Positions 2,954 through 56,950 of a stretch of DNA of 56,950 nt are shown here, one piece after another (position 1 is the first letter of the stretch; every line of letters begins with the position of its first letter). Under the pieces are notes generated by a model that worked only from the letters and a program-made list of their open reading frames with translations, had not been told where the DNA came from and searched no databases. The translations under genes were made by a program, and so were the position numbers. Origin of the DNA: Acinetobacter lwoffii (GTDB taxonomy: Bacteria > Pseudomonadota > Gammaproteobacteria > Pseudomonadales > Moraxellaceae); contig SPVA01000045.1 of NCBI GenBank assembly GCA_013530545.1, positions 1 through 56,950 of the forward strand. The letters run 5' to 3'.

Positions 2954-2960
2954 TAGACAT

Positions 2961-2993
2961 AAAAAAAGCCTCTACGACTAGGGGCTTTTTTTA
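2961..2993. terminator. Bidirectional terminator between amt and the LysE gene
   Basis: An A-tract, a GC-rich stem (AAGCCTCTA / TAGGGGCTT, one mismatch, CGAC loop) and a T-tract lie between two convergent genes. It can end transcription from both sides. Confidence 0.8.
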
Positions 2994-3022
2994 TTTATAA
3001 GCAGAGCATCTAGATGAAGTAA

Positions 3023-3646
3023 TTACTTCATACCAAAAATTAATTTTAAGCCAAGTACCGTCATAACTGCGCCTGCTGCGCGGTCAAACAAAGCCTTAAA
3101 CTTCAAATAAACACGACGTGGCTTTTCCGCAGATAATGCAACTGCGACTAGTGAACACCAGCCTGCATCAATAAAGAAACATAAGACAGGCAAAACAAAA
3201 TAAAAATACGTTGGAATTTCTTTGGGCAATAACGCGGTAAAAATACTGGCCAGCACAATCGCAATTTTGGGATTGGACAACTGTGTGATTAAACCAGTGG
3301 TAAAAGCACGGCGTAAAGACATCTGTTTGCTAATGGTTGTATCCGCTTCGATCGGATCTTTGGCATGTTTAATGATTTTAAACGCCAACCAAAGTAAATA
3401 TAAACCACCACAAATTTTTAAGGCCAGGTACGCTGAGGGTACAGCCAGTAAAAATGCCTGCAAACCGAGAACCGCCAGCAGACCAAAAATCGCTGCACCG
3501 AGACCAGTACCCAATGCAGTAAATAAACCATGTTTACGTGAAATGGCAATTGAATTTTTTGCCACATAAATAGAAGTTGGCCCGGGACTCATTGCGCCTA
3601 ACATCAGGGCAAAAGCAATCGAACCTAAAATCCAGAATGATTCCAC
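3023..3646 (-). CDS. LysE/RhtB-family amino-acid exporter
   Basis: This 207-residue inner-membrane protein has about six hydrophobic helices and the family's early signature (GAMSPGPTSIYVAKNS, residues 17-32). LysE/RhtB proteins export amino acids or small metabolites by proton antiport; the substrate here is unknown. Length and topology are typical. The start is a GTG at 3646, the only sensible start just before the first helix. It shares a terminator with the convergent amt gene and has no operon partner. Confidence 0.88.
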   Translation of the reverse strand: MESFWILGSIAFALMLGAMSPGPTSIYVAKNSIAISRKHGLFTALGTGLGAAIFGLLAVLGLQAFLLAVPSAYLALKICGGLYLLWLAFKIIKHAKDPIEADTTISKQMSLRRAFTTGLITQLSNPKIAIVLASIFTALLPKEIPTYFYFVLPVLCFFIDAGWCSLVAVALSAEKPRRVYLKFKALFDRAAGAVMTVLGLKLIFGMK

Positions 3647-38194: not shown

Positions 38195-41032
38195 ATGAGC
38201 GTAATCACTTCAACTCCTGGTCAACTTCAGGTGATTAAACGCACCGGTGATGTTGCCGCTTTTGATGCAGAAAAAATTTCTGTCGCAATTGGTAAAGCGT
38301 TTTTGGCGGTTGAAGGCCAACAAAGCGCTGACTCGAGCCGGATCCATGATCGTATCGAGCAACTGACGGAAATGGTATTAAATACCTTTAAACGTCGTTT
38401 ACCTTCTGGCGGAACGATTCATATTGAAGAAATTCAAGACCAAGTTGAACTTGCGCTAATGCGTACGGGCGAACAGAAAGTTGCACGCTCTTATGTCATT
38501 TATCGTGAACAACGTTCTGAAGCACGTAAACAATTAGGTGCACATCATCACCCGACCCTGCAAATTACCGATGCTGAAGGCAAACTCAAGCCACTGGATT
38601 TAAGTGCTTTAACTGCGCATGTTACTAAAGCAGCTGAAGGCCTTGAAGGCATTGATGTACAAGCGATTGTCGATGAGACTGTGAAAAACTTGTACAACGG
38701 CGTAAAAGAGTCAGACATCTCGACCACGATGATGATGGCGACCCGTACTCGTATCGAGCAAGAGCCTAACTATACGTATGTGACTGCACGTTTATTGCGT
38801 GATGACCTGGTTGCGACTGGTTTGAAATTCCTGGGTCTACCTGTAGATACAGTTGAAGGCGATGCGCTGGAAACTTACCTGAAAAAAGGGATTGAGCTTG
38901 AGCTGCTTTCTCCAGAATTGCTGAACTTTGACCTGGCTAAACTGGCAGCTGCGATTCAACCGGAACGCTCTAACCAGTTTACTTACTTGGGTCTGCAAAC
39001 TTTATTTGACCGTTACTTCATCCATTCAGATGGCGTACGTTTCGAACTTCCGCAATTGTTCTTTATGCGTGTTTCTATGGGCTTGTCGCTCAATGAAGAA
39101 AACCGTGAAGACCGCGCGATTGAGTTCTATAACTTATTGTCTAGCTTCGACTACATGGCATCGACGCCTACCCTGTTTAACTCAGGTACGCTTCGTCCAC
39201 AATTGTCGAGCTGCTATTTAACAACCATTGATGATGACCTGTATGACATTTATGGCGCGATGCGTGATAACGCAATGCTGTCTAAATGGGCAGGCGGTTT
39301 GGGTAATGACTGGACGCCAGTCCGTGCCTTGAACTCATACATCAAAGGCACTAACGGTAAATCTCAAGGTGTAGTTCCGTTCCTGAAAGTGGCGAATGAT
39401 ACTGCTGTTGCGGTTAACCAAGGTGGTAAGCGTAAAGGTGCAGTTTGTGCATACTTAGAAACCTGGCACCTGGACATCGAAGAATTCTTGGAACTGCGTA
39501 AGAACACCGGTGATGACCGTCGTCGTACCCACGACATGAACACTGCGAACTGGGTTCCTGACCTGTTCATGCAACGTGTATTCGAAGATGCAGAATGGAC
39601 ACTGTTCACCCCTTCTGAAACGCCTGATCTACATGATTTGACGGGTGCAGAATTCGCTGAGCGTTATGCACATTACGAAGCGATTGCCAAAGAAACAAAT
39701 ATGCTGCACAAGAAAATCCGTGCAAAAGATTTGTGGCGCAAAATGCTGTCCATGCTGTTTGAAACTGGTCACCCGTGGATCACATTCAAAGACGTATGTA
39801 ACTTACGCTCACCACAGCAACACGTAGGTGTGGTGCACTCTTCTAACCTGTGTACAGAAATTACACTCAACACAAGCAAAGAAGAAATTGCGGTATGTAA
39901 CTTAGGTTCAATTAACCTGGTACAACACGTCAAAGGCGGTGTACTTGATCGTGAAAAACTGGCACGTACAGTTAAAACTGCGGTTCGTATGCTCGATAAC
40001 GTGATTGACATCAACTACTACGCTGTTCCACAAGCACGTAACTCGAACCTGAAACACCGTCCGGTTGGTATGGGTATCATGGGCTTCCAGGATGCACTAT
40101 ACGAAATGAACCTGGCTTATGGTTCTGATGCTGCGGTTGAGTTTGCTGATGAATCGATGGAAGTGATTTCGTACTACGCAATTTCAACATCTAGCGATTT
40201 GGCTGTTGAACGTGGTACATACGAAACATTCAAGGGTTCATTGTGGGATCAAGGTATCCTGCCAATCGACTCGCTTGATCTGGTTGCGAAAACTCGTCCT
40301 GAACGCATGTTCGAAGTCGACCGCACTCAACGTCTGGACTGGGACACTTTACGTACCAAAGTTCAAAAAGATGGTATGCGTAACTCGAACGTGATGGCGA
40401 TTGCTCCGACTGCTACGATTTCAAATATCTGTGGTGTTTCTCAATCTATTGAGCCGACATTCCAGAACTTGTATGTGAAATCAAACCTGTCTGGCGAATT
40501 CACCGTGATTAACCCGTACCTGGTACGTGCGTTGAAAGAACGTGGTCTTTGGGATGCAGTAATGGTCAACGACCTGAAACATTTCGAAGGTTCTGTTCAG
40601 AAGATTTCTCGTATACCTGAAGAGCTTAAAGCCATCTTCGCGACTGCGTTTGAAGTTGAAACGCGCTGGATCGTGGATGCTGCATCACGTCGTCAAAAAT
40701 GGATTGATCAGGCGCAGTCTCTTAACCTTTACATCGCTGGTGCAAACGGTAAGAAACTGGACATCACTTACAAGATGGCCTGGTTACGTGGTCTTAAGAC
40801 GACTTATTACCTGCGTGCATTGGGTGCGACTTCTGCCGAGAAATCAACAATCAACACTGGCGCATTGAATGCAGTTAAACCTGCAACTGTTGCGGCGCCT
40901 GTTGTAGCAGCAGCTCCGGTGGTTGAAGCGCAAAAACCTGAAGCTCCTGCAGAGGAAGAAGGTTTTGCACAAGCGGCTCCAGTGCCAATGGCATGTTCAA
41001 TTGACAACCCTGATTGTGAGGCTTGTCAATAG
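38195..41032 (+). CDS. nrdA: Class Ia ribonucleoside-diphosphate reductase, alpha subunit
   Basis: This 945-residue enzyme makes deoxyribonucleotides and needs NrdB for its radical. The N-terminus carries an ATP-cone (residues 10-110, QVIKRTGDVAAFDAEKI) and a second, weaker cone-like segment (about 125-215), making it longer than E. coli NrdA. Catalytic features are the redox cysteine in RPQLSSCYLTTI, the N-x-C-x-E active site in SSNLCTEITL with the partner cysteine in AVCNLGSINL, and a tyrosine pair in LKTTYYLRAL. The C-terminal tail ends with the thiol pair CEACQ. In Acinetobacter nrdB normally follows; here a recombinase module begins 135 bases after the stop. Confidence 0.96.
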   Translation: MSVITSTPGQLQVIKRTGDVAAFDAEKISVAIGKAFLAVEGQQSADSSRIHDRIEQLTEMVLNTFKRRLPSGGTIHIEEIQDQVELALMRTGEQKVARSYVIYREQRSEARKQLGAHHHPTLQITDAEGKLKPLDLSALTAHVTKAAEGLEGIDVQAIVDETVKNLYNGVKESDISTTMMMATRTRIEQEPNYTYVTARLLRDDLVATGLKFLGLPVDTVEGDALETYLKKGIELELLSPELLNFDLAKLAAAIQPERSNQFTYLGLQTLFDRYFIHSDGVRFELPQLFFMRVSMGLSLNEENREDRAIEFYNLLSSFDYMASTPTLFNSGTLRPQLSSCYLTTIDDDLYDIYGAMRDNAMLSKWAGGLGNDWTPVRALNSYIKGTNGKSQGVVPFLKVANDTAVAVNQGGKRKGAVCAYLETWHLDIEEFLELRKNTGDDRRRTHDMNTANWVPDLFMQRVFEDAEWTLFTPSETPDLHDLTGAEFAERYAHYEAIAKETNMLHKKIRAKDLWRKMLSMLFETGHPWITFKDVCNLRSPQQHVGVVHSSNLCTEITLNTSKEEIAVCNLGSINLVQHVKGGVLDREKLARTVKTAVRMLDNVIDINYYAVPQARNSNLKHRPVGMGIMGFQDALYEMNLAYGSDAAVEFADESMEVISYYAISTSSDLAVERGTYETFKGSLWDQGILPIDSLDLVAKTRPERMFEVDRTQRLDWDTLRTKVQKDGMRNSNVMAIAPTATISNICGVSQSIEPTFQNLYVKSNLSGEFTVINPYLVRALKERGLWDAVMVNDLKHFEGSVQKISRIPEELKAIFATAFEVETRWIVDAASRRQKWIDQAQSLNLYIAGANGKKLDITYKMAWLRGLKTTYYLRALGATSAEKSTINTGALNAVKPATVAAPVVAAAPVVEAQKPEAPAEEEGFAQAAPVPMACSIDNPDCEACQ

Positions 41033-41067
41033 GGATGATATACTTTAAATAGTATACAATATTTTAG

Positions 41068-41113
41068 TATACCCCTTGTAAATCTTATACTTAAGCTCTT
41101 TACAAGGGGTATA
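41068..41113. repeat. Perfect 15-bp inverted repeat at the left end of the island
   Basis: TATACCCCTTGTAAA (41068-41082) and its exact complement (41099-41113) flank a 16-base spacer. A T-rich stretch follows, so it could serve as the nrdA terminator; its position between nrdA and the first recombinase also suits an end or recombinase-binding site. A second smaller hairpin (TTGTATTT / AAATACAA) follows immediately. Confidence 0.6.
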
Positions 41114-41167
41114 TTTTTGTATTTAATAAAATACAAGGTAGATGACAATTAGAAAACGTATATATTA

Positions 41168-42418
41168 ATGATAAAACGTAGCATAAAGAACTTTATTGCA
41201 AGTGATGGTCAACCTATGGTTGTTCTCATTGATGAAAATAGAATCCCTCTGTTTCATCCTAATATTTATGCCATGACAAAGTTTCGAACTTTAGGTCGTC
41301 AAGTTAGTACTACAGAAAAAAATCTCTACTGCATTGGCATGGCCCACCTGTGGGCAACTATTCATAATATTGACTTGGAACATACAATTTTAAATGCTCA
41401 GTTTTTAACTATTGAACAACTTCAAGATTTAGCTTTTTTTCTAAGATTAAAAAGAACGAAACAAAATGAGCTACTGATACAAAAAATAGGATCTCAACCC
41501 TTAACCCCAAAAAAAATTGCCAAAAAAATTGAAAATATAATTTACATGTCCACCCAGGTCTCCATTCAAAAAACTACCACGACTGCAACAGAGGGGGCTT
41601 TTCGGATTAAAGCTGTTCATCAATATTTTAAGTTTTTACTGCAAAGATCGAAGCATCGCTTTAATAAAGAGAAAATTGATAATTTTGAACAAAGCCTCAA
41701 CTACTTCTATACCCTTGCACCAAAAAATAAGAACAAGGGTGATCAAGACGTACTAGAAGGGCTTAGCCGATCAGAGCAAAATATTATTATCGAAATCATG
41801 AACCCAACCCACCCAGACAACCCATTTAGAAGTAACTTTAACAGGCATCGTAATCAACTAATTTATGAGATGCTTTTAGGCACTGGAATGAGACGCAGTG
41901 AGCTTAGATTCTTAAAAATTGAAGATGTCGACTTTAGAACACATCAAATCCATATTCGTGTGTCCAAAACAAAAGAACGAACTGTTCCATGCTCATCCAA
42001 TACCTGTGAACTGTTTCATCAATTCATCACACGGCATTTATCTAAAGTGCCTTTCAAAAATAGAAAACATGGTTATCTATTCACAACTGAAACAGGTCAA
42101 CACTTGTCCAATGATGCGATCAATTTAATTTTTAGGACATTAAAAAAACAAGTAAATATTTCAACATGTATTACACCTCATACTATGAGAAGAACATGGA
42201 ATGACAATCTAAATATACTTATTGATAGCCTTCCACCAGATCAGAAACCAAACCAAGAGTTAGAAAAGCAAATAAGAAATAGACTAATGGGTTGGAGTTC
42301 AATTTCTGAAATGAGTAGCAGATATAGCAGACGATCAATCAGAGAAAAGGCTGATGAATTGGGTGAACTACTAGCAAACTCAATTGCTCAAAACAAAGGA
42401 GAAAATAATGCAATATAG
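41168..42418 (+). CDS. Tyrosine recombinase 1 of the island integration module
   Basis: A 416-residue site-specific recombinase. The C-terminal catalytic domain shows the first arginine in GTGMRRSELRFLK (near residue 240), a lysine in VSKTKERTVP, the H-x-x-R box PHTMRRTW (near 338), a tryptophan in the last basic position (MGWSS) and the nucleophile in SSRYSRR (near 384). The N-terminal half is probably the core-binding domain. It opens a cluster whose genes overlap, so the proteins are probably made together. The layout recalls Tn554-type TnpA/B/C, RIT elements and the gamma-mobile-trio islands. Confidence 0.88.
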   Translation: MIKRSIKNFIASDGQPMVVLIDENRIPLFHPNIYAMTKFRTLGRQVSTTEKNLYCIGMAHLWATIHNIDLEHTILNAQFLTIEQLQDLAFFLRLKRTKQNELLIQKIGSQPLTPKKIAKKIENIIYMSTQVSIQKTTTTATEGAFRIKAVHQYFKFLLQRSKHRFNKEKIDNFEQSLNYFYTLAPKNKNKGDQDVLEGLSRSEQNIIIEIMNPTHPDNPFRSNFNRHRNQLIYEMLLGTGMRRSELRFLKIEDVDFRTHQIHIRVSKTKERTVPCSSNTCELFHQFITRHLSKVPFKNRKHGYLFTTETGQHLSNDAINLIFRTLKKQVNISTCITPHTMRRTWNDNLNILIDSLPPDQKPNQELEKQIRNRLMGWSSISEMSSRYSRRSIREKADELGELLANSIAQNKGENNAI

Positions 42419-43808
42419 TTTGGATCTTTTTAGCCCATCGGTATCAGTACGGAAAATCATTAGTTTAGATGGACAATTATTAAAAGTTCCTCTTTTTCAA
42501 AAATTTAAAATTACCAATCACGATAATCAAATATTCACACTAAACTTAGATATTTTTGACAGCGGTAATCCACTACACACCGCATTATCAAACCTAGTTA
42601 TTGATATGATTCAAACAAAATCGATAACTTATGTTTCAACCACAACAAGAGCCTTAAAAAAATGGTTTAATTCAAATATATTTCAAGAAAGCCACCTTGA
42701 TATTAATTGCTTGGAAACACTGAATAATATTAATCCTAGCTATCAGCCTTTCCTAATCCCACTTTTGAGAAAATTAAGTCTACGTCATAAAGATTTGATG
42801 ACAGAAGAACTTATAGATTTTTTTAAAAATACGAACAAATGGGAAGAACGAAACCCTGCATACTTCAAATTAATTGTAAATGACCCTGAAAAAGGAGTTT
42901 TTACTACACAAGAGCTTGTAAACCTACATGACAATTTAAACTTGGCTTTTAGCCAAAAAAAATTAAGTCAGTACGATTACACACTTGCATGGTTTGTTAT
43001 TGCAACAGGTGCAAGGCCTGTACAGCTTTCAAGATTAAAATTCAATGATATAAATATCATTGAAAATGATGTCATGATCAAAATGCCATTAGCAAAAGGC
43101 GAAGGTATAATTGATCAAGGATTTTTTTTAAGAAAAGCTCCAACAATATTAGCGGATTGCCTTATTAGATACATTTCCAATTCTAATCATAAAAATATAG
43201 ACACCCCCCTTTTTGGTTTAAACCCCAATGAAATTAGTAAGAAAATAAAAGTAATTTTTGAAAATTTAGACACCTACTCTTCAAGATTAGAGGGAGAAAT
43301 TCCTGTCAACGCATATCGCTTTAGATACACCCTTGCAACCAGAGCCTTGAAAAATGGTGCTTCAGACCATGAAGTTGCGCGATTACTTACACATCGTTCT
43401 TTAAGCTGTATTAAATACTATCGTGCATCTTTACCTGAGCTGCAGAAACCAATACAAGATGCGTTATCAGAGGAAATGAGCTTTTTTGCGCATGCATTCA
43501 AAGGAAAAATCATCACCTCTCTTGATGATGCAACGTTCAAAAACTCGGCTATTGCCGATTTCTTTCGCTTAGCAGGAAAAAGCATTGGCTCCTGTGGCAC
43601 ACAAGCAAAATGCTATCAGAATGCCCCTATTTCATGTTTGACTTGTCCTTATTTTGAACCTTTAGCTGATGCTCCATGGAATAGCCTTTTAGAATTTTTA
43701 CTGGATGACCAAGCGAAAGAACAAGAGGAAAGGATTAAAGAAATTACCACTAGAGCTATTGAAGCAGTCAAAGAAATTATGTCAATCGTTGAGGAGTCAA
43801 ATAACTAA
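42408..43808 (+). CDS. Tyrosine recombinase 2 of the island integration module
   Basis: A 466-residue recombinase starting at ATG 42408, with AAAGGAG just upstream and an 11-base overlap with gene 1. The catalytic pattern is GARPVQLSRLKF (arginine near 202), a lysine in MPLAKGEG, then YRFRYTLATRA where tyrosine replaces the usual histidine of H-x-x-R, followed by LTHRS and the nucleophile region IKYYR (near 335). A C-terminal cysteine cluster (CYQNAPISCLTCPYF near 411, plus an earlier GSCGT) looks like a zinc-binding knot. It is one of three consecutive recombinases. Confidence 0.87.
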   Translation: MQYSLDLFSPSVSVRKIISLDGQLLKVPLFQKFKITNHDNQIFTLNLDIFDSGNPLHTALSNLVIDMIQTKSITYVSTTTRALKKWFNSNIFQESHLDINCLETLNNINPSYQPFLIPLLRKLSLRHKDLMTEELIDFFKNTNKWEERNPAYFKLIVNDPEKGVFTTQELVNLHDNLNLAFSQKKLSQYDYTLAWFVIATGARPVQLSRLKFNDINIIENDVMIKMPLAKGEGIIDQGFFLRKAPTILADCLIRYISNSNHKNIDTPLFGLNPNEISKKIKVIFENLDTYSSRLEGEIPVNAYRFRYTLATRALKNGASDHEVARLLTHRSLSCIKYYRASLPELQKPIQDALSEEMSFFAHAFKGKIITSLDDATFKNSAIADFFRLAGKSIGSCGTQAKCYQNAPISCLTCPYFEPLADAPWNSLLEFLLDDQAKEQEERIKEITTRAIEAVKEIMSIVEESNN

Positions 43809-45865
43809 TGCATTCATTTATAGACTTCAATGATTCTAGAAAGCTAGAAGCTAAGAAAAAATTAAATGCATATATTTTAAAGTATAAAAATAACTTTATA
43901 TTTCAAGACAATCATTGGGATGATTCTATATGGGACATTACAGACTTTTTAAAAAACAAGATAAGAAATCATCAATCACAAAGAGTACATTTCAGATCTT
44001 ATGTTGATGACTCAAAAATCAAATCGATAGTTGAAAAACCCATTTCAAAGCCGCTCTTAGATTTTGTTAAGGCATCGTTTTGCGAAATTATGTTGGCCAA
44101 AAAACTACTAGAATCTAGACGGATTATTTATGCATACCAAGCCTTAGAGCATGCATTACATAAACAAAACCGTGAAATCTGCGTGACTGAAATTAATATT
44201 GAAACTCTAAATTTAGCTGAAGCATATCTTTTATCAAGATTTCAAGATGCTTGGGCTGTTGCTAAAAATCTAGAGAATATTATCAACAATTTTATTATTG
44301 CAAAGGGGCTAAATACAGAAGTTTACCAATGGTCTACTAGTATCAAATATACAGCACCAATAAGAAGTGACCGTACACAAAGAGAACATATCAATCAAAA
44401 AAAATCTAAACTTCCACATTTAGAAGAGATTATAGCGCTCGCTGACATACACTGCTCAAGTACTCACACCTCAGATAAAATCGTTACATCTTTTGTTTCC
44501 CTAGCCATGTTCGCACCTAGCAGAGGAACTGAAATACTAACACTACCTATAGATTGCAAGACATTCGCTTCCCAAGATGAGCAAGAAATTATGGGACTAA
44601 AATGGCTTCCATCAAAAGGTGGTGACCCAATTACTAAATTTAGCATTGGCCCTGAATGGGATGATATAGCATCAAAATCCATTGACTATTTAACTAGACT
44701 TGGAGCTTCTGCACGTATAGCAGCAAAATGGTACAGTGAAAACCCTCAAAACTTATATCTACCAGAGCATCTAACTCACCTCAGAAATCAACCCATTACC
44801 CTTTGGGAAGTTGCACAAATTTTAGGAAAAGAAAATTCAATCAAAGGATGCCATGCCTTTAGATATGGTTTCTCAAAAAATATTGGAAGAACCTCTGATA
44901 AAGGAAGAATGTTCGATAAGGACAGCTCTTGGGTTAACCTATATCAATTTGAAGAACTTGAGAAATTTATCATTTCCAAATTTCCGAAGACTTTTCCTGT
45001 ATTAAATGGCTCTACTCAACAATATTGGCACGATTCATTATTTGTATTACCTAAAAACATTCTAAAACCTGATGCAGATAATCTTCAAAATGTCCCTGAA
45101 CCTATTAACTTAGGCCAAATTAACAAACAATTAGGAAGTAATCCAAATGGTAATACAATCTTTACAAGAAATCATAAGTTCCTAAATACTCAAGGTGATA
45201 AACAAAAAATGTATATCACTACACATCAGTTTAGACACTTACTAAATACTTTGGCACAGCTAAAAGCATTACCACAGGAACTTATTGCATTTTGGTCTGG
45301 CAGGAAAAGTATTAAACAAAATGATGTTTACAACCACATCTCTCAAGATGCTTATATTGAGGCTTTCACTAATATAGAAGATAAATTCCAAAAAATTTCA
45401 CAGACAGGATATTTAGACGAAAAAATAAAAAAAATTATACACCTCAATCCAATTAACTATGAAGAAGCGTTAAAAATTGAATTAGGATCCATTCATATCA
45501 CGCAATATGGCATCTGTAGACATGATTACTCGCTCACTCCTTGCCCCAAAGACAAGGATTGCGGAAATTGTAGTGAGTTTTCGGTAATGAAAGGAAATGA
45601 AGCACATTTTACAAAAGCCAATCAACAAGTCGAATTGCTTTCTAAAGCGCTTTTAAATGCCAAACAAGCAGAAAAAGATGGTCATCCAGGTGCAAGAAAA
45701 TGGATTGAACTAAACGAACCCAAATATGAGCGCTGGCAAAAAATTAAAGCTTTTTTAGAGGATGACTCTATCCCCAACAATACGATGTTTACTTTAGCCG
45801 ATCCAATTGAACAACATCAAACTCAAATCGGTTTTGCATATTCAATACGAGAATTAAAAAATTAA
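43808..45865 (+). CDS. Tyrosine recombinase 3 of the island integration module
   Basis: This 685-residue recombinase is the largest of the three; its start overlaps the previous stop codon (TAATG). Catalytic residues are the arginine in APSRGTEILTL (near 237), a lysine in LPSKGGDP, H-x-x-R in HQFRHLLNTL (near 473), a tryptophan in FWSGRKS and the nucleophile in DVYNHIS (near 508). The C-terminus holds a four-cysteine segment (CRHDYSLTPC, then DCGNC, near 571-590), probably a zinc site. The long N-terminal 200 residues are unlike ordinary phage integrases and resemble the large TnpB-type partner of Tn554. Confidence 0.85.
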   Translation: MHSFIDFNDSRKLEAKKKLNAYILKYKNNFIFQDNHWDDSIWDITDFLKNKIRNHQSQRVHFRSYVDDSKIKSIVEKPISKPLLDFVKASFCEIMLAKKLLESRRIIYAYQALEHALHKQNREICVTEINIETLNLAEAYLLSRFQDAWAVAKNLENIINNFIIAKGLNTEVYQWSTSIKYTAPIRSDRTQREHINQKKSKLPHLEEIIALADIHCSSTHTSDKIVTSFVSLAMFAPSRGTEILTLPIDCKTFASQDEQEIMGLKWLPSKGGDPITKFSIGPEWDDIASKSIDYLTRLGASARIAAKWYSENPQNLYLPEHLTHLRNQPITLWEVAQILGKENSIKGCHAFRYGFSKNIGRTSDKGRMFDKDSSWVNLYQFEELEKFIISKFPKTFPVLNGSTQQYWHDSLFVLPKNILKPDADNLQNVPEPINLGQINKQLGSNPNGNTIFTRNHKFLNTQGDKQKMYITTHQFRHLLNTLAQLKALPQELIAFWSGRKSIKQNDVYNHISQDAYIEAFTNIEDKFQKISQTGYLDEKIKKIIHLNPINYEEALKIELGSIHITQYGICRHDYSLTPCPKDKDCGNCSEFSVMKGNEAHFTKANQQVELLSKALLNAKQAEKDGHPGARKWIELNEPKYERWQKIKAFLEDDSIPNNTMFTLADPIEQHQTQIGFAYSIRELKN

Positions 45866-45901
45866 CTGTTCTCTCCCATTTTATTTGAATTAGGATAATG
45901 T

Positions 45902-46318
45902 ATGGCAACTGCACCAAGACTCACAAACGAGAGAATAGAAATTGCTCTCAAACTTTTAGATGGGTGGACTGGAAAATTAACGTGGTCTCGCTTTTTAGCA
46001 TTGCTAGAATTAGATATAGGACACAAATATACAAAAGCTGCTTTATTAAGACATCCAAAATTCAAAGATGCTTGGGATAAAAGACGGTGGAATGAAAATC
46101 CCGATAAAAATATAGCAAAAGGTTTTGGCAATTATGGATTACAAACAGCTTTAGAAAAAATTGAAAAGCTAGAAGCTACAATTGAACGCCTTGAAAATGA
46201 AAATAATCTGCTGACTGAAAAGTTTGTAGTATGGGCAACAAATGCTACGAATAGAGGTCTATCTTTAGAAGATTTAGATAGAGCAATCCCCTCTCATGCA
46301 GAGAAAAATTTTAGATGA
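45902..46318 (+). CDS. Small coiled-coil accessory protein of the recombinase module
   Basis: A 138-residue protein 36 bases after recombinase 3. Residues 1-75 look like a compact DNA-binding-type helical domain (RLTNERIEIALKLLDGW, with many Trp, Lys and Arg), and residues 80-112 form a heptad-rich coiled coil (TALEKIEKLEATIERLENEN). Small proteins of this kind end Tn554-type (TnpC) and gamma-mobile-trio (GmtX) modules and influence excision or orientation; equivalence here is inferred from size and place. Confidence 0.75.
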   Translation: MATAPRLTNERIEIALKLLDGWTGKLTWSRFLALLELDIGHKYTKAALLRHPKFKDAWDKRRWNENPDKNIAKGFGNYGLQTALEKIEKLEATIERLENENNLLTEKFVVWATNATNRGLSLEDLDRAIPSHAEKNFR

Positions 46319-46372: not shown

Positions 46373-49300
46373 TTAAGCCACCGCTTCATTAAACGCTTCA
46401 ACCACCCCAAATATACTGTCTGCATCCCCATCACCAAACACACCATCGATCCCTTCATAGTGAATTTGGTTAAACGGTGGTTCATATAATTGAGCAGCCT
46501 CTAATACACCATTTTGTGTTAAATGTTCGATTAACATTTCCACAAAACGTATCTGTTTTTCGTTATACGTTGAACCTTGTAGATACTTTGAGAATGCTTC
46601 TTGTACCGCTTGACGATCCAACCCCACCAAAGAGCGAATGAATAATGGTAGTGACTTTTCTGTACCAAAACATTCTTCAAACTTATCTCGGCTTTCTACT
46701 TCTTGAGCTTCAAAAACAAAACGCTCTAGCTCACTTAAATCAGTCGGTGTAAGAGTCAAACCACGTTTTAACTTTGCAATCGTAATATGATTTTCATTCG
46801 CCTTAATAAAGCTTTCTACACGTTTACGGTACTGTGCAAGATTGACACCACTTGATACGACAGGAATATCAACCGCTTGCATCTGTCCAATTTCATCATC
46901 GAGCATAGAATACACAATGGTCGAGGTCGATTTTTCAATCAGTTTCACCAAATCGCGAATACGTTTACGCATCGCTTCGAGCATTGGCAAGGTGATGCCT
47001 TTCCAGTATTCAACGGTTTGAATGTCTTGAATTAGCGCAATCTGTTCTGCAACAACAGGAATATTTTCTTTGCTTTCCAGTTTAGAAGCAATTTCAATCA
47101 CTTTATTGGCATAGCTTTGAGCTGCTGTATTGTTCTTTTCTAATACTGCTAGTTCAAGGTTATAACACAACATATCAAACAGTTTGGCTTCTAAGGTTTC
47201 AGGCTCAAGCTGGTTTGGTAATTTAGAAATGTGTTCTCGTAACGTACCGATGGCAAGATCATCTAAGTTGTTCCAAGCATCATCATTTTTGAAATGTTCA
47301 ACATGCTCAAGTTCAGATTTCACAATGAAATTCTCATTGTTCATGGACTTTACTTCAGTCTGTAAACTCTGACGCATATCTTGCTGTACAGCTTTCAATT
47401 CTTCGGTGTTATAGTCTTTAGCATTGAGCAGATTCAGGATATTTAAACGTGCTTTAAACAAGCGTTGTCCGAGTGGCTCTGTGGTCGATACAGGCGCACC
47501 ATCTGGATTTTCATTGAAGTATTCAAAGTTAGAGCAATAATCGAAAATAAAGAATTCTTTTTTATCTTTTTCAGGGCTAAACAATTCTTTGCAGAGTCGT
47601 GTACCACGCCCAATCATCTGCATAAACTTCACTTTAGAACGTACAGCTTTAAAGAATACTAAGTTGACCACTTCAGGTACATCAATGCCTGTATCGAGCA
47701 TATCCACTGAAATCGCAATCTGTGGCTCAGGTAAATCTTTCTTGCTAAAGTCATCAATTAAGCTTTGTGGATACTTAGTGGCATGTGTAATGACACGGGC
47801 AAACTTGCCATCATATTGCGGATAGTTTTCATTGAAGCGATCAGCAATAAACTGGGCATGTTTTTGATTGACGGCAAAGATAATGGTTTTACCAAGACGA
47901 TCTCCACCTTCAGTTTTAATACCATTTTCCATCAAGTGCTTGAGCATTAAATTAATCGTGCCTGTATTAAACAGCTCTTTATTAATCTTGGATGCTGAGA
48001 CCTCTTCAGGTGCATCTTGATTGCCCCAATTTAGACTATCCCAATGTTGTTTTTCTTCTTCGGAAAGTTCGTCATATTTCACGCCTTCACGCATGAATTT
48101 AAGCGGAACAGAATAAGCTTTTGGTGGCACAAGATAGCCATCGGCAATGGCTTGATCAAGGTCGTAGTAATCGGTTGGGACACCGCTTTCTAAGCCAAAC
48201 AGTGCGTATGTATCACGGTCAACTTCATCTCGTGGCGTTGCGGTTAAACCAACAAGCAAACTATCGAAGTATTTAAAAATCTCGCCAAATTTTTGATAAA
48301 CGCTGCGGTGTGCTTCATCAATAATAATCAGGTCAAACATGCCTGTACCGAATTGGCGTGTACCGTCCGCATTTTTTTCATCAATCAAGCCGATCATGGT
48401 TTGATAGGTAGAGAAATACACTCGACCAACCTGATTTTTATCCTCAAGTAAATTGACGAATGAGGCATCTTTTAAATTGGCTTTAAAGGCATTGTGCGCT
48501 TGATTGACCAATGAAGTGCGGTCTGCAAGGAATAAGGCTTTTTGCACCAGATTGGCTTTCATCAGCACATCGACCAGTGCAATGGCAGTACGTGTTTTAC
48601 CTGTGCCTGTTGCCATAATCAGTAAGCCTGCACGTTCTTTACGTTGATAGGCTGCAAGCATGGCTTTGATGGCACGAGTTTGGTAGTAACGCTCGACAAT
48701 CTCTGCATTGATCGGGAAGCTGCTTAAATCAGGGTTGTTCTTACGTCTTTCGATCAAGCGTTTGAGTTCTGCTTGTGTGTAAAAGCCATGAACTAAGCGT
48801 GGTGGGCCACCTTGCACATCATTCCAAATTCGGGTTTTGTAGCCATTGGTATAGAATATGACAGGGCGTTGTCCTGTTTGTTGCTCTAAACAGTCTGCAT
48901 AGAGCTTGGCTTGTTGTTGTCCAATATCAGGGTCGGTTGATGTGCGTTTTGCTTCAACCACAGCCAAAGGCAAGCCATTGGCATCATACAGCACATAATC
49001 CACTGCACCTTTACCCGATGGGCTCGGCATACCTGTTACAGCAACTTCCTCTCGAACCGATGTACCTATTTCCCAGCCTGCTTCTTCAAGCATGAGGTCA
49101 ATTTTAAGTTTTCGAGTTTCGTCTTCTTTATAGTCGGTATGGTCTTCGATTTTGCTGTTGGCAATTTTGGCTTGTTCAACATCAGCACGTTTTTGTGCAA
49201 GTTCAGCATCTATATTTGCAAGTAATTTTTCACGCTCTTCTAAACTTGCAGACAGTTCAAATAGTTTTTGTTCACGTTCCCGTAAAGCTTTATGTTGCTC

Positions 49301-49813
49301 CGCAAACTGTTTTTCTTTAGCTTCTGTTTCTTTTTGCAGTTGTTCTTTGTTGGCGGTGATTTGCTGAGTATTGTCAGCATTTGGTATTAGTTTTGGGTTA
49401 AATAAAATCGACTGAGAGCGATCTTTTGAGGGTGAGCCATAGTTTCGTTCAAACCAGACATACATCAGAAATAAATGGCTAATGTGTTTAACGGTTTCTT
49501 CTGTTGTGAGCTGCTTGAACTTTTTCCCATGTACGGCACTGTTACCGACCATGCGGATGTTGTCCATTTTGTCCCAAATATAGGGCGGAATCAGGTCTTT
49601 GAATTTGAGGTCGTTGAGTAAGTTATGTAGTGAAGCATCATAAGGTTGGGTCAGTTTTTTGTCGTATTGATACAGCCACAGCACGAGGTTTTCAAGTGAG
49701 GTACGAGCAGCAGCAAGAGCAAATTGGGGGGATATATACGTGAGCTTTTCGGCTTCTTTGGCAGTCGCTGCCAAGCTTTTAAATTCAGGTTCTAAAAACG
49801 AGAAGTTGCTCAT
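46373..49813 (-). CDS. hsdR: Type I restriction endonuclease, motor/nuclease subunit
   Basis: A 1146-residue ATP-driven translocase and nuclease. Residues 1-130 resemble a DUF4145-type N-terminal domain, and about 150-220 is a Glu/Lys/Gln-rich coiled coil. The PD-(D/E)xK nuclease core is around 270-290 (D272, E288-A-K290). The helicase has motif I MATGTGKTRT (400-409), DEAH box (499-502) and motif III GLTATP; the end resembles an EcoEI-type C-terminal domain. Full length. It is the last gene of the hsdM-hsdS-DUF4850-hsdR transcript and is convergent with the recombinase module. Confidence 0.95.
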   Translation of the reverse strand: MSNFSFLEPEFKSLAATAKEAEKLTYISPQFALAAARTSLENLVLWLYQYDKKLTQPYDASLHNLLNDLKFKDLIPPYIWDKMDNIRMVGNSAVHGKKFKQLTTEETVKHISHLFLMYVWFERNYGSPSKDRSQSILFNPKLIPNADNTQQITANKEQLQKETEAKEKQFAEQHKALREREQKLFELSASLEEREKLLANIDAELAQKRADVEQAKIANSKIEDHTDYKEDETRKLKIDLMLEEAGWEIGTSVREEVAVTGMPSPSGKGAVDYVLYDANGLPLAVVEAKRTSTDPDIGQQQAKLYADCLEQQTGQRPVIFYTNGYKTRIWNDVQGGPPRLVHGFYTQAELKRLIERRKNNPDLSSFPINAEIVERYYQTRAIKAMLAAYQRKERAGLLIMATGTGKTRTAIALVDVLMKANLVQKALFLADRTSLVNQAHNAFKANLKDASFVNLLEDKNQVGRVYFSTYQTMIGLIDEKNADGTRQFGTGMFDLIIIDEAHRSVYQKFGEIFKYFDSLLVGLTATPRDEVDRDTYALFGLESGVPTDYYDLDQAIADGYLVPPKAYSVPLKFMREGVKYDELSEEEKQHWDSLNWGNQDAPEEVSASKINKELFNTGTINLMLKHLMENGIKTEGGDRLGKTIIFAVNQKHAQFIADRFNENYPQYDGKFARVITHATKYPQSLIDDFSKKDLPEPQIAISVDMLDTGIDVPEVVNLVFFKAVRSKVKFMQMIGRGTRLCKELFSPEKDKKEFFIFDYCSNFEYFNENPDGAPVSTTEPLGQRLFKARLNILNLLNAKDYNTEELKAVQQDMRQSLQTEVKSMNNENFIVKSELEHVEHFKNDDAWNNLDDLAIGTLREHISKLPNQLEPETLEAKLFDMLCYNLELAVLEKNNTAAQSYANKVIEIASKLESKENIPVVAEQIALIQDIQTVEYWKGITLPMLEAMRKRIRDLVKLIEKSTSTIVYSMLDDEIGQMQAVDIPVVSSGVNLAQYRKRVESFIKANENHITIAKLKRGLTLTPTDLSELERFVFEAQEVESRDKFEECFGTEKSLPLFIRSLVGLDRQAVQEAFSKYLQGSTYNEKQIRFVEMLIEHLTQNGVLEAAQLYEPPFNQIHYEGIDGVFGDGDADSIFGVVEAFNEAVA

Positions 49814-49867: not shown

Positions 49868-50617
49868 TTACTTATGTGTTAAAGAAAAAAAGTTTAACAT
49901 TATTCGAGCATATTCCATTTTATCTGATGCAACTGTAACACTAAGTCCATCATAAATATTGTCTTCATTTGGCCGAAATTTTGCGACCCCATTGGTTTGA
50001 TATTGTCCTTTTAATTGATACTGATAATAAACAGTTTGTTGATTCGCTCTTACTATGTGTACAGGTGGTGTTGTCCCACTAAACTTAGTACCATATAGTT
50101 GATGATTTTGCCTTGCAGCTTCTGGGAAAAATGGTGTTGCGGCATCAAGTCCACAACCGACACAAGCAGGGACAGCATATAAACTTAGGTTTGACTTTTG
50201 ATCTGCTGATGCAAGTGCTAAAACGGTGTTGCCGTTTACACCAATAGCACCTTTCAATCGTGTCCATTCAGCAGGTGCTAAGATCCATTCTTCTGTTTCA
50301 GCAATGTTATATACCCTCATGCTGGCAGCAAGTTTTTTTGGTAAATCCATTGCGAAATAGCACTTTGACTTATTACAACTTGCTGTAGGTCTATGTGGTG
50401 CATCAGTTTCATCCATACCCATAGGGACGCTGATCGAATATGCAGGGACTTGCACACCATTTTTAAATATTGCTGTACCTATAGCCGTTATAGGATGCAT
50501 TTTTCTTTGTTCATTTACGCTGATATCTATTCTTACAGGAGAAAATGTATATTTTTCAGCAAAACTAGCAGTTGAAAAAAAACTTAAGCCAACGGCTACG
50601 ATTAATTTAAATTTCAT
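49868..50617 (-). CDS. Exported DUF4850-like protein inside the hsd operon
   Basis: A 249-residue protein with a clear Sec signal peptide (MKFKLIVAVGLSFFSTASFA, cleavage near residue 20), so it should be periplasmic or secreted. Two cysteine pairs (SCNKSKC, CVGC) could form disulfides. The body appears beta-rich and resembles DUF4850-type proteins found mainly in Acinetobacter; their role is unknown. Its start codon lies inside the end of hsdS (11-base overlap) and hsdR follows 54 bases later, so it is part of the restriction operon. That is an unexpected place for an exported protein. Confidence 0.78.
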   Translation of the reverse strand: MKFKLIVAVGLSFFSTASFAEKYTFSPVRIDISVNEQRKMHPITAIGTAIFKNGVQVPAYSISVPMGMDETDAPHRPTASCNKSKCYFAMDLPKKLAASMRVYNIAETEEWILAPAEWTRLKGAIGVNGNTVLALASADQKSNLSLYAVPACVGCGLDAATPFFPEAARQNHQLYGTKFSGTTPPVHIVRANQQTVYYQYQLKGQYQTNGVAKFRPNEDNIYDGLSVTVASDKMEYARIMLNFFSLTHK

Positions 50618-51809
50618 AACTGTCCTTGTATCTTAGATTCTCAAATGAAGTGCCGTTAAAAGCTTGGTTTTGTAGTGATTTGAATAAATCATCTGCTTGA
50701 TTCAATGCAAGTTTAGATTTGATTTTTAAACTTTCAATCACTTCACACTTTTGGACAAAATAATTTTGTTCATCTAAGGAGATATTGAATACTATAATTT
50801 CTTTTAAATCCTTAAGATTTAGCGTTTTTTGGGCAACTCCACGCACTAAACGATCTGCCTGTCGTCTGACACCATAACTTGATAACATCTTTTCTAAAAA
50901 CTTAGGATTTACCTTATCGAAATTAGGTTTGATATGTGCGATATGTCTTTGAAAACAAAATAATTGATTACTTTTAACCCTAGCTACATTACCATAACTA
51001 CCAACAGTTGTATAAAGAATATCATTCAACTCAATTTTGGTACTTTTTGTTAATGAATCATACGTGACTTGATCAATAAACTTTTGAGAAGAATAATCAA
51101 TTTCTCCATCAACTATATTGCTGATAAATAAAAATGGAATACCTTCTGTTGTCCACTTAGGACTTTGATGTGTGCCATCAGTAACTTTTTTGCATAAATC
51201 TAATAAGGCAACTGTTTCTAATCCTTTTAGGTTATCAATAGGATCGCCAAACATATCAATAAAGGTGGCTTGTAAAAGCTGATCTAACTTTTCAATGGCT
51301 TGCTGACGTTTTTGGCGTAAATCATCCGCTTGATCTAAAATTGACGCAATTCGGCGTTGTTCTGCAAGTGGTGGGAGTGGGATTTTTACTTCACTTAACT
51401 TAGCTTTATTTAATGTTTTACCCATTGCAGCACGATCAGCATTTTCAAGTAAATCAATATGCTGTAAAGCCCAATATAAATAGTTTATATCTACTTGTGA
51501 GTCTAACTCTGTTAATGATGCAATAGCCTCATTTGTATACATCGGTTTTTGAGTTATACCAACTTTACCAATACTTAGTTTATAACTTAGTACCAATGTA
51601 TTCTTAGGAATAAGCTTTATATTTGATGCTTTTACACCAAGATCAGTAATACATTCCTTCGTATTATTTAAATATCTCCCTTGATTCATATCTGCAATAG
51701 ATAGCCAAGCATGAGTACCATCTCTCCAATAATCATTTTCATGACGAGATGGTGTTTTGCCAATCTGAATAGTACAAATATCTTTCAGAGCTTTTAGTTC
51801 AAAACTCAC
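50607..51809 (-). CDS. hsdS: Type I restriction-modification specificity subunit
   Basis: This 400-residue subunit sets the DNA target of the methylase and nuclease. It has two target-recognition domains (about residues 1-150 and 200-350). A conserved helical spacer lies between them (PPLAEQRRIASILDQADDLR near 148), and a second, weaker spacer-like segment is at the C-terminus. Recognition domains are highly variable, so the bipartite target cannot be read. It overlaps hsdM by four bases and the downstream exported protein by eleven. Confidence 0.93.
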   Translation of the reverse strand: MSFELKALKDICTIQIGKTPSRHENDYWRDGTHAWLSIADMNQGRYLNNTKECITDLGVKASNIKLIPKNTLVLSYKLSIGKVGITQKPMYTNEAIASLTELDSQVDINYLYWALQHIDLLENADRAAMGKTLNKAKLSEVKIPLPPLAEQRRIASILDQADDLRQKRQQAIEKLDQLLQATFIDMFGDPIDNLKGLETVALLDLCKKVTDGTHQSPKWTTEGIPFLFISNIVDGEIDYSSQKFIDQVTYDSLTKSTKIELNDILYTTVGSYGNVARVKSNQLFCFQRHIAHIKPNFDKVNPKFLEKMLSSYGVRRQADRLVRGVAQKTLNLKDLKEIIVFNISLDEQNYFVQKCEVIESLKIKSKLALNQADDLFKSLQNQAFNGTSFENLRYKDSYEI

Positions 51810-53287
51810 TTAAGCATCTCCTTAAGTGCAGCCATTCCTTTTAAAATATCTTGTTCAAGCACTTCTAAATCCGCCAATATTTTACTTGGTGCTTCATATT
51901 CCACTTGCTCATACACCACTTCCTTATAACGGTTAATCGACAAGTCATAACCATTGGCAGCAATATCAGCTTTGTCAACTAAGAAGCTTTGCTCTGTCGC
52001 TTTACGAGAGCTTTCCACTTCTAAGTTTTTAAAACGAGCAATAATGTCAGGAATATTATTATTTTCATGCTTAGACGCATCTAATTCATTGCGCTTATCA
52101 TCCAACGAATAACCATCCGCCTGCATATCATAAAACCAAACTTTGTCCGTACCGCCCGACATGGTTTTGGTGAAAATCATAATGGCAGTCGAAACGCCTG
52201 CATACGGCTTAAAAACACCAGAAGGCATTGAAATAATTGCTTCAAGCTTTTGTTCTTCCACAATCTTTTGACGCAAATCCTTATGCGCTTTTGATGAACC
52301 AAATAACACACCATCAGGCACAATCACCGCAGCACGACCACCTGTTTTTAATAGACGTAAGAACAAGGCTAAAAATAACAATTCGGTCTTTTTGGTTTTG
52401 ACTACGGCTTGAATGTTCTTGGCACAGCTTTCATTGTCTAAACTGCCTGCAAATGGAGGATTGGCTAGAATCAGGCTGTATTTTTCAGCAATATGAGAAT
52501 GCGTTTCACTCAAAGAATCACGGTTTTCAATACGTGGGTTTTCAACACCGTGCAGCATCATGTTCATTGAACCAATACGAAGCATGGTGCTGTCAAAGTC
52601 ATATCCAAAGAAGGTGTCGGAGCTAAAACGCTTAGCCGCTTCAGGATTGGCAAAAATTTCAGTGCTGTAATGATCATTTAAATATTCACTTGCAGCAACA
52701 AGGAAGCCAGCTGTACCACACGCAGGGTCACAGATGGTATCGGTTGGCTTAGGTTGCATCAGCTCCACAATCATCTTGATGATATGGCGAGGGGTACGGA
52801 ACTGACCGTTTTGACCTGCTGAAGCGATCTTACCGAGCATGTATTCGTAAATATCGCCTTTAGTGTCTTTATCATCCATTGGTACATCGGCAACCAAATC
52901 CACCACTTTGGTTAAAAGTGCAGGTGTGGGAATGGTAAAACGGGCATCTTTCATGTGGTGGCTATAGGTGGTTTCGTCTTCTGCACCTAAGTTTTTAATG
53001 AAAGGAAAGACTTCATTGGCAACGGTATTATATAAAGTTGCAGCATCGCCTAAAGTGATGAATTTCGACCAACGTAAGTGGTCTTGTTCAGGCGTAAAAA
53101 TTGGATGTTCTACAGCTTTCTTTAAACGATTAGCTTTCTTCTCTTTAGTGATCTGAATTTCATCAAGTCGGCGAATAAACAGCAAATAGGTCATTTGCTC
53201 CATGACTTCTAAAGGATTGGAAATACCACCACTCCAAAATGCATTCCAAATCTGGTCAATTTTGCTTTTAATTTCGCCTGTAATCAC
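51806..53287 (-). CDS. hsdM: Type I restriction-modification DNA methyltransferase subunit
   Basis: A 493-residue adenine N6-methyltransferase. I start it at the GTG 53287 (M/VITGEIKSKIDQIWNAFWSG), the usual HsdM N-terminus; a TTG five codons upstream is possible. Motif I (DPACGTAGFL) is at about 187-196, and the catalytic NPPF at 276-279. The N-terminal helical domain (SNPLEVMEQMTYLLFIRRLDE) is complete. It is the first gene of the hsd operon, divergent from the HAD hydrolase with about 160 bases between starts. Confidence 0.95.
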   Translation of the reverse strand: MITGEIKSKIDQIWNAFWSGGISNPLEVMEQMTYLLFIRRLDEIQITKEKKANRLKKAVEHPIFTPEQDHLRWSKFITLGDAATLYNTVANEVFPFIKNLGAEDETTYSHHMKDARFTIPTPALLTKVVDLVADVPMDDKDTKGDIYEYMLGKIASAGQNGQFRTPRHIIKMIVELMQPKPTDTICDPACGTAGFLVAASEYLNDHYSTEIFANPEAAKRFSSDTFFGYDFDSTMLRIGSMNMMLHGVENPRIENRDSLSETHSHIAEKYSLILANPPFAGSLDNESCAKNIQAVVKTKKTELLFLALFLRLLKTGGRAAVIVPDGVLFGSSKAHKDLRQKIVEEQKLEAIISMPSGVFKPYAGVSTAIMIFTKTMSGGTDKVWFYDMQADGYSLDDKRNELDASKHENNNIPDIIARFKNLEVESSRKATEQSFLVDKADIAANGYDLSINRYKEVVYEQVEYEAPSKILADLEVLEQDILKGMAALKEMLK

Positions 53288-53448
53288 GTGGATGACTCTC
53301 AAATTTGTTTGAGGTCTATTGTGTTGGATTTACAAGGGAAATGCTATGGGGAAATAGTGGGGTGCGACATCATTTGACTTTCATAGAAGTTTATTCTTAG
53401 GCAAAAAATATTAAACTGAATCATCTAAAAAGTAGATTGTGAAATAGC

Positions 53449-54051
53449 ATGAAGAATGATCCTAAAGTCATAATATTTGATGCTTTCGGTACACTTGTAA
53501 AAATTGGTACAAGCCGATCTCCATATCGTAAATTAATGAAATGGCTAAAAGATAATGGGAGAAAACCAAGCCCTAAAGATGCAAATATCATCATGTCACA
53601 AGCTATTGATATTGCACAATTAGCTCTGCATTTTGGACAAGTGATTCCTGAACAGCTTTTAAATGAAATCAATGATGACCTTCAATTTGAGTTAAATACG
53701 ATTGAACTCTATGAAGATACGATACCTACGCTACAAGTTTTACAAAAACATGATTTTAAAATTGCGCTTTGTTCCAATTTAGCAATGCCTTACGGTGAAC
53801 AACTTAAAACACTTCTGCCTAGTTTATTTGATGTCGTTGTCTTTAGTTATGAGGTAGGATCAATAAAGCCTGAACAACAAATTTATGAATTCATTAAGGT
53901 ACATTTCGACTATGAAATATCAGAAATGTTATTTATTGGAGATCATCCAGTTTTAGATGTTGAAAAACCAATTTCATTAGGAATGAATGCACGCTTGATT
54001 CAACGTCTTAAAGGGCAGCAACTTTTGGATGTAATAGCAGATTTATTATAA
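53449..54051 (+). CDS. HAD-superfamily hydrolase
   Basis: A 200-residue soluble enzyme. Motif I is IFDAFGTLV (nucleophile D10; the second aspartate is replaced by phenylalanine as in many haloacid-dehalogenase-type members). Motif II is the Ser in LCSN, motif III a Lys in GSIKPEQQIYEF, and motif IV IGDHPVLDVE. A helical cap lies between motifs I and II. The substrate is unknown; likely a phosphatase. It is divergent from hsdM and may be ordinary cargo of the island. Confidence 0.85.
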   Translation: MKNDPKVIIFDAFGTLVKIGTSRSPYRKLMKWLKDNGRKPSPKDANIIMSQAIDIAQLALHFGQVIPEQLLNEINDDLQFELNTIELYEDTIPTLQVLQKHDFKIALCSNLAMPYGEQLKTLLPSLFDVVVFSYEVGSIKPEQQIYEFIKVHFDYEISEMLFIGDHPVLDVEKPISLGMNARLIQRLKGQQLLDVIADLL

Positions 54052-54956: not shown

Positions 54957-55532
54957 TTATACTAAGCCCAAGTCCCCAAAAAAGTTCTGCATTTCAATCA
55001 AGCCTCTTTCAACGGTATCCTGATACTCTGGTTTATCCTGTATTAAACTAGAACTCAATGATGCACCGATCCATCTTGATGTTCCCAATTGCGCTCTATT
55101 CAATATTGCCATTCTCATAGAAAAAACATCATCAAAATTTGCATGATCTTCATCATTTATAGTTAAGTCATCAAATTTGTACTTAGTCTTATCGAATGAT
55201 GAACCCTTCCAATAAAAAATGGATGCTCTGCGGACTAGACAGGGAACACAGCGACCACAATGCGTATTGTTATAAACTCCATACCGCCCACAGCTTGTCG
55301 TGACATGTGCATATTTCTTAAGGAGGTTCTGATCCAAACACTTTTCTAACATCTCGCCTTTTGTCATAAATCTATAGGGATTACAAATAGAAATCTTGAG
55401 TCCACAATTGTTTAAGATCTCTTGAAAAAGATTTAAAACTACGGGATGAGTTGTTCTTGTGCTTAAGCTTCCTATACGCCCTGGTGTTATAGCTGGATTT
55501 ATTGATATATATCCATTTTCACAGACGTAAAG
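54957..55532 (-). pseudogene. QatC-like (QueC-family) defence protein, C-terminal remnant
   Basis: About 190 codons read without a start codon from roughly 55532 down to 54957. The sequence contains the distinctive C-terminal half of QatC, the QueC-like member of the Qat anti-phage system: LYVCENGYISINP, RIGSLSTRTTHP, NPYRFMTKGEML, and a four-cysteine zinc site (SCGRYGVYNNTHCGRCVPC followed by LVRRA). The ATP-pyrophosphatase N-terminal half is missing, and QatA, QatB and QatD are not seen. Homology ends where plus-strand sequence of another gene begins, so a rearrangement cut the gene. Confidence 0.75.
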
Positions 55533-56421: not shown

Positions 56422-56833
56422 TCACTTCAAATATCGATAAACAGCCTGTCGACTGATGCCAAAAGCATTTGCTAACGCAACTTTCGATGAGAATTTTCTA
56501 TCTATCCATGATTGTCGTAAAGCCTCAGCCTGCTCAGGCTTTAATTTGTGGGCTCGACCTTTATATTTCCCTTGTGCAGCTGCAATTTTAATTCCCTCTT
56601 TCTGACGTTCCAAAATAATCTCTCGTTCAAATTGGGCAAAAGCTCCCATTAACTGCAACATCAGATTATCCATCGGAGTAGCCTGTGCCGTGAAGGTAAT
56701 ATTCTCTTTCACAAACTGGATGGCCACTCCCCTTTTTACGAGTTGATCAACCTCAGTAACCAAATCTTTCAGACTTCGAGCAAAACGATCCATGGAATGG
56801 ACAATCACACTGTCCCCTTCCCGGACATAGTTC
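56422..56833 (-). pseudogene. Serine resolvase/invertase, 5' end lost to an IS6-family element
   Basis: The reading frame covers the C-terminal two thirds of a Tn3-type resolvase: the segment after the catalytic region (YVREGDSVIVHSMDRFARSL), the long helix (LMLQLMGAFAQFEREIILER), and a C-terminal helix-turn-helix (KVALANAFGISRQAVYRYLK). The first 50-60 residues, including the catalytic serine, are absent. Upstream coding sequence stops at 56833, exactly where the IS6-type terminal repeat begins, so the IS interrupted the gene. The fragment cannot be an active recombinase. Confidence 0.82.
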
Positions 56834-56950
56834 GGCACTGTTGCAAATAGAGATTTGAGTCGATGATGTTCCCTTTAAAAAGTACTTAGAGACCGAAAAC
56901 CCTGTTGATTAGACACACTTCACCCTGAGGCTGACCATAATAAAATGACG
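56834..56950. mobile_element. IS6-family insertion sequence (IS26-like end), partial
   Basis: GGCACTGTTGCAAA at 56834-56847 is identical to the IS26 terminal inverted repeat. Past it, the non-coding end and the final codons of a transposase on the minus strand are visible. The rest of the element lies outside the window. The eight bases before it (CATAGTTC) would be the target duplication. Confidence 0.85.
56886..56950 (-). CDS. IS6-family transposase, C-terminal end (partial)
   Basis: Twenty codons ending at TAA 56886-56888 read SFYYGQPQGEVCLINRVFGL, the typical tail of IS6-type transposases from Acinetobacter (IS1006/IS1008-like). The upstream DDE catalytic part is beyond the window edge. 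Confidence 0.65.
   Translation of the reverse strand, partial: SFYYGQPQGEVCLINRVFGL

Follow-up and report, generated by a model that had tools for sequence, protein, structure and literature searches.

The question raised by this locus is to which kind of mobile element four adjacent genes of Acinetobacter lwoffii belong, three coding for different tyrosine recombinases and one for a small protein. They are located on the forward strand of the window, i.e., the whole stretch of DNA analysed, which corresponds to one entire contig (G000:C116, 56,950 bases) of a genome in 127 contigs. An earlier note, made from the sequence alone, had considered the combination undescribed and the module a possibly distinct vehicle of defence islands.

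GInts, or the Tn6571 family, are a described kind of mobile bacterial island (Bardaji 2017, PMC5385486) characterized by an operon in the order A-B-C-D at the 5′ end of the island, encoding three tyrosine recombinases and one small protein. The insertion sites named in the same paper are the terminus of the gene for the ribonucleoside-diphosphate reductase alpha subunit, as in Pseudomonas aeruginosa PA_D16, the ends of ssb genes, and the 5′ end of ettA; the islands are bounded by short imperfect direct repeats of 10–17 nt, the 3′ end is AT-rich, and restriction-modification systems are frequent cargo. Circle formation and the requirement for all four genes were demonstrated in another GInt, and most GInts excise at a low level (PMC5385486). 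The available part of PMC10121019 lists GInts, as a Tn6571-family transposon, among the defence carriers in E. coli.

The module is very probably the ginABCD operon, that is, the left end of a GInt inserted in the last codons of nrdA and predicted to excise as a circle and reinsert at the same codons. A distinct vehicle is not needed, since GInts have this gene set, the reductase site, and restriction cargo; by the published description all four genes correspond to one known element type with the same target and cargo, and three recombinases accompanied by a small protein are what described GInts possess (PMC5385486). The vehicle of an Acinetobacter restriction operon is thus named as a described element class, and the exact ends given here make its excision testable.

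Genes of the Module and Catalytic Residues

The four open reading frames that the earlier note had placed at 41168..46318 are all open there: ginA (41168..42418, 416 aa), ginB (42408..43808), ginC (43808..45865, 685 aa), and ginD (45902..46318, 138 aa). The overlaps of 11 and 1 bases were borne out; ginA and ginB overlap by 11 bases when the ATG at 42408, preceded by AAAGGAG, is taken as the ginB start (an upstream TTG at 42384 is also in the list of open reading frames), ginB and ginC share 1 base, and a gap of 36 bases separates ginC from ginD. The element is larger than this interval, starting about 140 bases earlier in the nrdA tail and reaching the contig end.

The identification of three different tyrosine recombinases and a small protein is confirmed for GinA and GinB by Pfam (83.4 and 37.5 bits, respectively, against the Phage_integrase cut-off of 27.1) and for GinC by a Foldseek search with the predicted structure (mean pLDDT 76), in which tyrosine recombinases fill the top 43 of the best 50 rows listed, with a best E-value of 0.003 and none at E ≤ 0.001. 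GinC and GinD have no match in the curated families of NCBIfam and Pfam. GinD is predicted to consist of a helical N-terminal bundle and a long C-terminal helix (residues 77–117).

Recognisable catalytic residues were found by alignment in each recombinase, as had been proposed. R242, K267, H338, R341, W376, and Y386 of GinA are present in 11 of 11 aligned rows, and K238, R314, H337, and Y346 of GinB in 12 of 12, R211 of GinB being kept in 10 rows and replaced by N in two dnaN-type relatives. R239, K270, R476, and Y508 of GinC occur in all 52 aligned sequences and H473 in 50, with about 200 residues between K270 and H473. The extra cysteine clusters noticed in two recombinases are likewise conserved: C404, C410, C418, and C421, at the C-terminus of GinB, are invariant among the 12 rows, and C570, C579, C585, and C588 of GinC are found in 48 to 51 of the 52. 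The conservation of R, K, R, and Y in GinC is modestly new; judged from the alignment, it contradicts the published description, which makes GinC a non-catalytic partner, and a catalytic GinC, if borne out, would change the modelling of three-integrase recombination. In A. colistiniresistens (L036:6618-8595), ginA is apparently split, with a reverse-strand open reading frame between the parts.

Target Site and Ends of the Island

The target gene is nrdA (38195..41032, forward strand), coding for the ribonucleoside-diphosphate reductase alpha subunit, which ends in DNPDCEACQ and a stop codon; its end reads GATTGTGAGGCTTGTCAATAG and its DNA is 82% identical to A. baumannii nrdA. The attL core TGTCAATA (41024..41031) coincides with the Cys-Gln-stop codons and is followed by the left end of the element (41033..41167, 76% AT), which lies between nrdA and ginA.

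The nrdB gene of the same genome is located on another contig, C80 (L055), at 1801-3081, and the eight bases of TGTCAATA recur on it at 1064-1071, adjoining nrdB. The direct repeat between the window attL and C80, on separate contigs, comprises 8 of 10 shared bases, and none of 20000 random 12-mers from the right-end region shares eight bases with the nrdA tail. Past the core of C80, 34 of 40 bases are those of the uninterrupted nrdA-nrdB junction of a congener (G011); on the other side, positions 802-1072, a stretch that closes with TGTCAATA, are 73% alike to the right end of the A. seifertii island, and positions 120-496 are 95% alike to the Cap4 gene of that island. The right end is 72% AT, compared with 58% across the window. 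From these similarities, the right end on C80 is likely that of the same island, although window and C80 are separate contigs.

A. seifertii NIPH 973 carries a complete sister island of about 18.4 kb between nrdA and nrdB, and Acinetobacter provides the nearest operon among named records. Empty sites are found in seven of the eight congeners fetched, in which nrdB starts 366–801 bases behind nrdA with no operon between them; in the eighth, no operon is present up to the end of the stretch, about 730 bases past nrdA. In A. baumannii, the two genes are 327 bases apart. The core was placed in the Cys-Gln-stop codons because of the ends in the window, C80, and A. seifertii together with these empty junctions. 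In the literature, no report was found of nrdA as an integration site of genomic islands in Acinetobacter.

GTATAC occurs, counted by eye, twice in the window left end (41033-41167), twice in the C80 right end (L055:900-1072), and three times at the left end in P. psychrophila (L038:7168-7310), and these copies are candidate binding sites. At 35220-36868 of the window, a sensor-kinase beside a response regulator, which we take to be the bfmRS pair, is represented by two overlapping open reading frames, where A. seifertii (L035) has a single one of 549 aa.

The Hairpin Behind nrdA

The left end contains a hairpin followed by TATATTTTT (41066..41115, forward strand; z −5.6), with counterparts in A. 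seifertii (z −6.3), P. psychrophila (z −3.9), and A. colistiniresistens (z −3.4), in the last of which the stem bases differ but stay paired. The short left end of P. antarctica has no hairpin (z −0.15), and the consensus scan did not report the window hairpin. The empty A. baumannii site has a different hairpin at the nrdA end (z −6.4). On these folding scores, we infer that the element-borne hairpin is a replacement terminator behind nrdA; an element that supplies a stop codon of its own together with a hairpin resembling a terminator is modestly new. The main text of PMC5385486 contains no match for ‘terminator’.

Cargo

The restriction operon pointed out in the earlier note is indeed cargo and is encoded on the reverse strand by hsdR (46373..49813, restriction subunit), hsdS (50607..51809, specificity subunit), and hsdM (51806..53302, methyltransferase) of a type I system, with a gene for a DUF4850 protein (49868..50617, reverse strand) between hsdR and hsdS. 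It is followed by a HAD-family hydrolase (53449..54051, forward strand) common to the A. seifertii island, by the C-terminal piece of a QatC-like gene (54957..55367, reverse strand; 136 of about 398 aa), and, near the contig end, by a serine resolvase with an incomplete start (56422..56838, reverse strand). This restriction operon recurs in the A. seifertii island with about 90% similarity in DNA and with about 31 bases in place of the DUF4850 gene; that island also carries a CBASS set of cyclase, E1-E2, JAB, and Cap4. On C80 (L055:1-500), an apparent transposase end precedes a Cap4 piece, and the CBASS set of the window's island seems broken.

Ten chosen cargo proteins were scanned from the A. 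seifertii, A. colistiniresistens, and P. psychrophila islands. The A. colistiniresistens island encodes a CBASS with TRIP13, HORMA, cyclase, and SAVED nuclease, and that of P. psychrophila an ATPase of a candidate defence family and HamA; defence genes are thus present in all four islands looked at, matching the published descriptions.

Relatives and Their Target Sites

GinD at 76% identity or more is present in 3 of 175 genomes of the genus and any GinD at E 1e-10 in 13 of 175; GinC relatives at E 0.001 occur in 22 of 149 genomes of the genus, and the GinC profile at E 1e-20 finds 14 of 390 genomes in the order and 13 of 398 in the phylum, each count including the genome studied here. Within this lineage, the reductase alpha gene is occupied at its end, at the codons of a Cys-x-Ala-Cys-Gln tail, in 10 distinct loci belonging to Acinetobacter, Pseudomonas, and alphaproteobacteria. 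Four of them are alphaproteobacterial, with a reductase of another subfamily (PRK09102) that yet ends in EECLACQ; the full four-gene set was read in one (L041), and ginA and ginC matches were seen in the others (L042-L044). In a tree of 52 GinC sequences, all ten nrdA loci fall in a 14-row group with support of 100/100, the other four rows being two cut at a contig end and two with other flanks. The available part of PMC10214605 distinguishes GInts from SEs and gives a count of 409 ginC-ginD blocks, of which none is alphaproteobacterial.

A scan of 53 loci for tail motifs assigned 20 to ssb, 11 rows (10 distinct) to nrdA, and 2 to dnaN, a site that the main text of PMC5385486 does not mention. 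Rows L041 and L111 probably represent one genome. The loci were collected by likeness to the window GinC, and the shares do not describe all GInts. This lineage at the reductase Cys-x-Ala-Cys-Gln codons, with more distant relatives at ssb or dnaN ends as judged by the motifs, is modestly new. A general rule of tail-motif targets was rejected, as 20 of the 53 loci show none of the three motifs: the 5′ end of ettA is the site of L104 (by profile) and of L106 (by a like start), L081 and L100 allow no judgement, and L046, L049, L082, L083, L086, L093-L097, L107, L108, L114, L116, L118, and L120 have other or no assignable flanks. Outside the count are L039 and L045, cut inside ginB, and L087, L098, L113, and L121, which have no ginA match.

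Some loci have unusual arrangements. On the P. aeruginosa plasmid pCF39S (L049:4350-11627), an operon of the nrdA lineage without adjoining nrdA has an aminoglycoside phosphotransferase gene on either side and limited space for cargo, and may occupy a secondary site. One contig (G482:C13) has a complete gin operon at ssb (L099) and then a second ginC-ginD pair (L100) for which neither a ginA nor a ginB match was seen; another (G084:C1) carries a pair of ssb-type operons, L085 and L086, that encode identical GinC proteins, the first type of position being at ssb and the second behind a different gene. In Acinetobacter, L093-L098 hold a more distant recombinase operon (about 449, 531, and 785 aa; some copies also have a small fourth gene), tied to the GInt group by weak matches only.

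Proposed Mechanism

The mechanism is likely that of other GInts, as the anatomy of the locus suggests. GinA, GinB, and GinC would act as tyrosine recombinases on the short core TGTCARTA, with GinD as an accessory DNA-binding protein: the recombinases would bring together the core copies of the two ends and free the island as a circle by strand exchange; in a new host, the circle would enter the same codons through strand exchange between its joint and the Cys-Gln-stop codons of nrdA. Insertion would leave the NrdA protein unchanged, with TAG as stop codon compared with TAA in relatives without the island, shift nrdB beyond the island, and place the element-borne hairpin, likely a terminator, behind nrdA. 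We infer the activity of this copy and the division of labour among its recombinases.

A broader reading, to which we give slightly less than even credence, is that GInts home on nearly unchangeable codons at protein tips (the Cys-x-Ala-Cys-Gln reductase tail, the DDDxPF tip of SSB, the DnaN end). Given a fixed tip, a single recombinase lineage could stay with one gene across gamma- and alphaproteobacteria with no need for a new target, the host gene would survive because the element restores its codons and supplies stop and terminator, and GinA, GinB, and GinC would all be catalytic, strand exchange thus involving three different active subunits. The target pattern would explain in simple terms how such islands can occupy one site in hosts that are only distantly related.

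Alternative Explanations

A GInt by descent, of which this copy is an immobile remnant retained for its cargo, would agree with the low excision of most GInts (PMC5385486) and with QatC and Cap4 genes present only as pieces, which may indicate that the copy is old; it is considered unlikely, as the four gin genes are open, the catalytic residues are kept, and the core is preserved at both mapped ends. Much less probable is a separate, undescribed element type that merely resembles GInts. GinC and GinD are indeed without a curated family and were likened to published GInts by description, but the gene set and order, the reductase site together with the ssb and ettA sites of the relatives, the AT-rich right end, and the restriction cargo all fit the printed features.

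A gamma-mobile-trio, RIT, SE, or Tn554-like element shares with the module the presence of several tyrosine recombinases, and the available part of PMC10214605 describes TnpC and Srap as counterparts of GinD by predicted structure. Such an assignment is nevertheless extremely improbable, since gene number and order differ in RIT, SE, and Tn554 and GinA scores far below the GmtY cut-off; the earlier statement that the gene set differs from Tn554, RIT, and the gamma-mobile-trio therefore stands. In the profile check, GinA reached 18.4 bits with the GmtY profile against a cut-off of 340, with no stretch passing, and none of the four proteins had a profile match named GmtZ or GmtX in a library that probably holds such models.

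Comparison with Known Systems

The gamma-mobile-trio (GmtY, GmtZ, GmtX) resembles the island described here in bearing defence cargo beside recombinases, according to the available part of PMC12715929, and differs in the GmtY profile. RIT elements (PMC3414803) also have three adjacent overlapping tyrosine recombinase genes, but they are three-gene elements of about 3.5 kb flanked by 28–34 bp inverted repeats, whereas the present island has one gene more, includes a recombinase of 685 aa, and carries long cargo, and the inverted match between the element ends is at most 12 of 14 bases. SEs, strand-biased circularizing integrative elements with the order intA-tfp-intB-srap, are likewise site-specific and have four genes, three of recombinase fold and one for a small auxiliary protein; in the available part of PMC10214605, however, the large protein is second and Tfp lacks catalytic residues, whereas here the large protein occupies third place and retains R, K, R, and Y. 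Tn554 (TnpA, TnpB, TnpC) shares site-specific insertion and tyrosine recombinases with a small helper and is set apart by gene count, having two recombinases and no large third one.

The GInts of PMC5385486 agree in the number, A-B-C-D order, sizes, and kinds of proteins, matched through the published description, and in having the operon on the left (5′) side of an island whose insertion site is the last part of the reductase alpha gene, here the nrdA tail. Short imperfect direct repeats are found at the shortest fit, with the right end on another contig; the 3′ end is AT-rich, the cargo, which includes restriction systems, is variable and differs among the sister islands, and relatives have an empty attB (seven of eight congeners and A. 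baumannii, the eighth as far as its stretch extends). Three differences remain: the direct repeat, with 8 of 10 bases, is at the short end of the published 10–17 nt; the hairpin behind the target gene is absent from the main text of the paper; and the first arginine of GinC, said there to be missing, is present here within a set of R, K, R, and Y.
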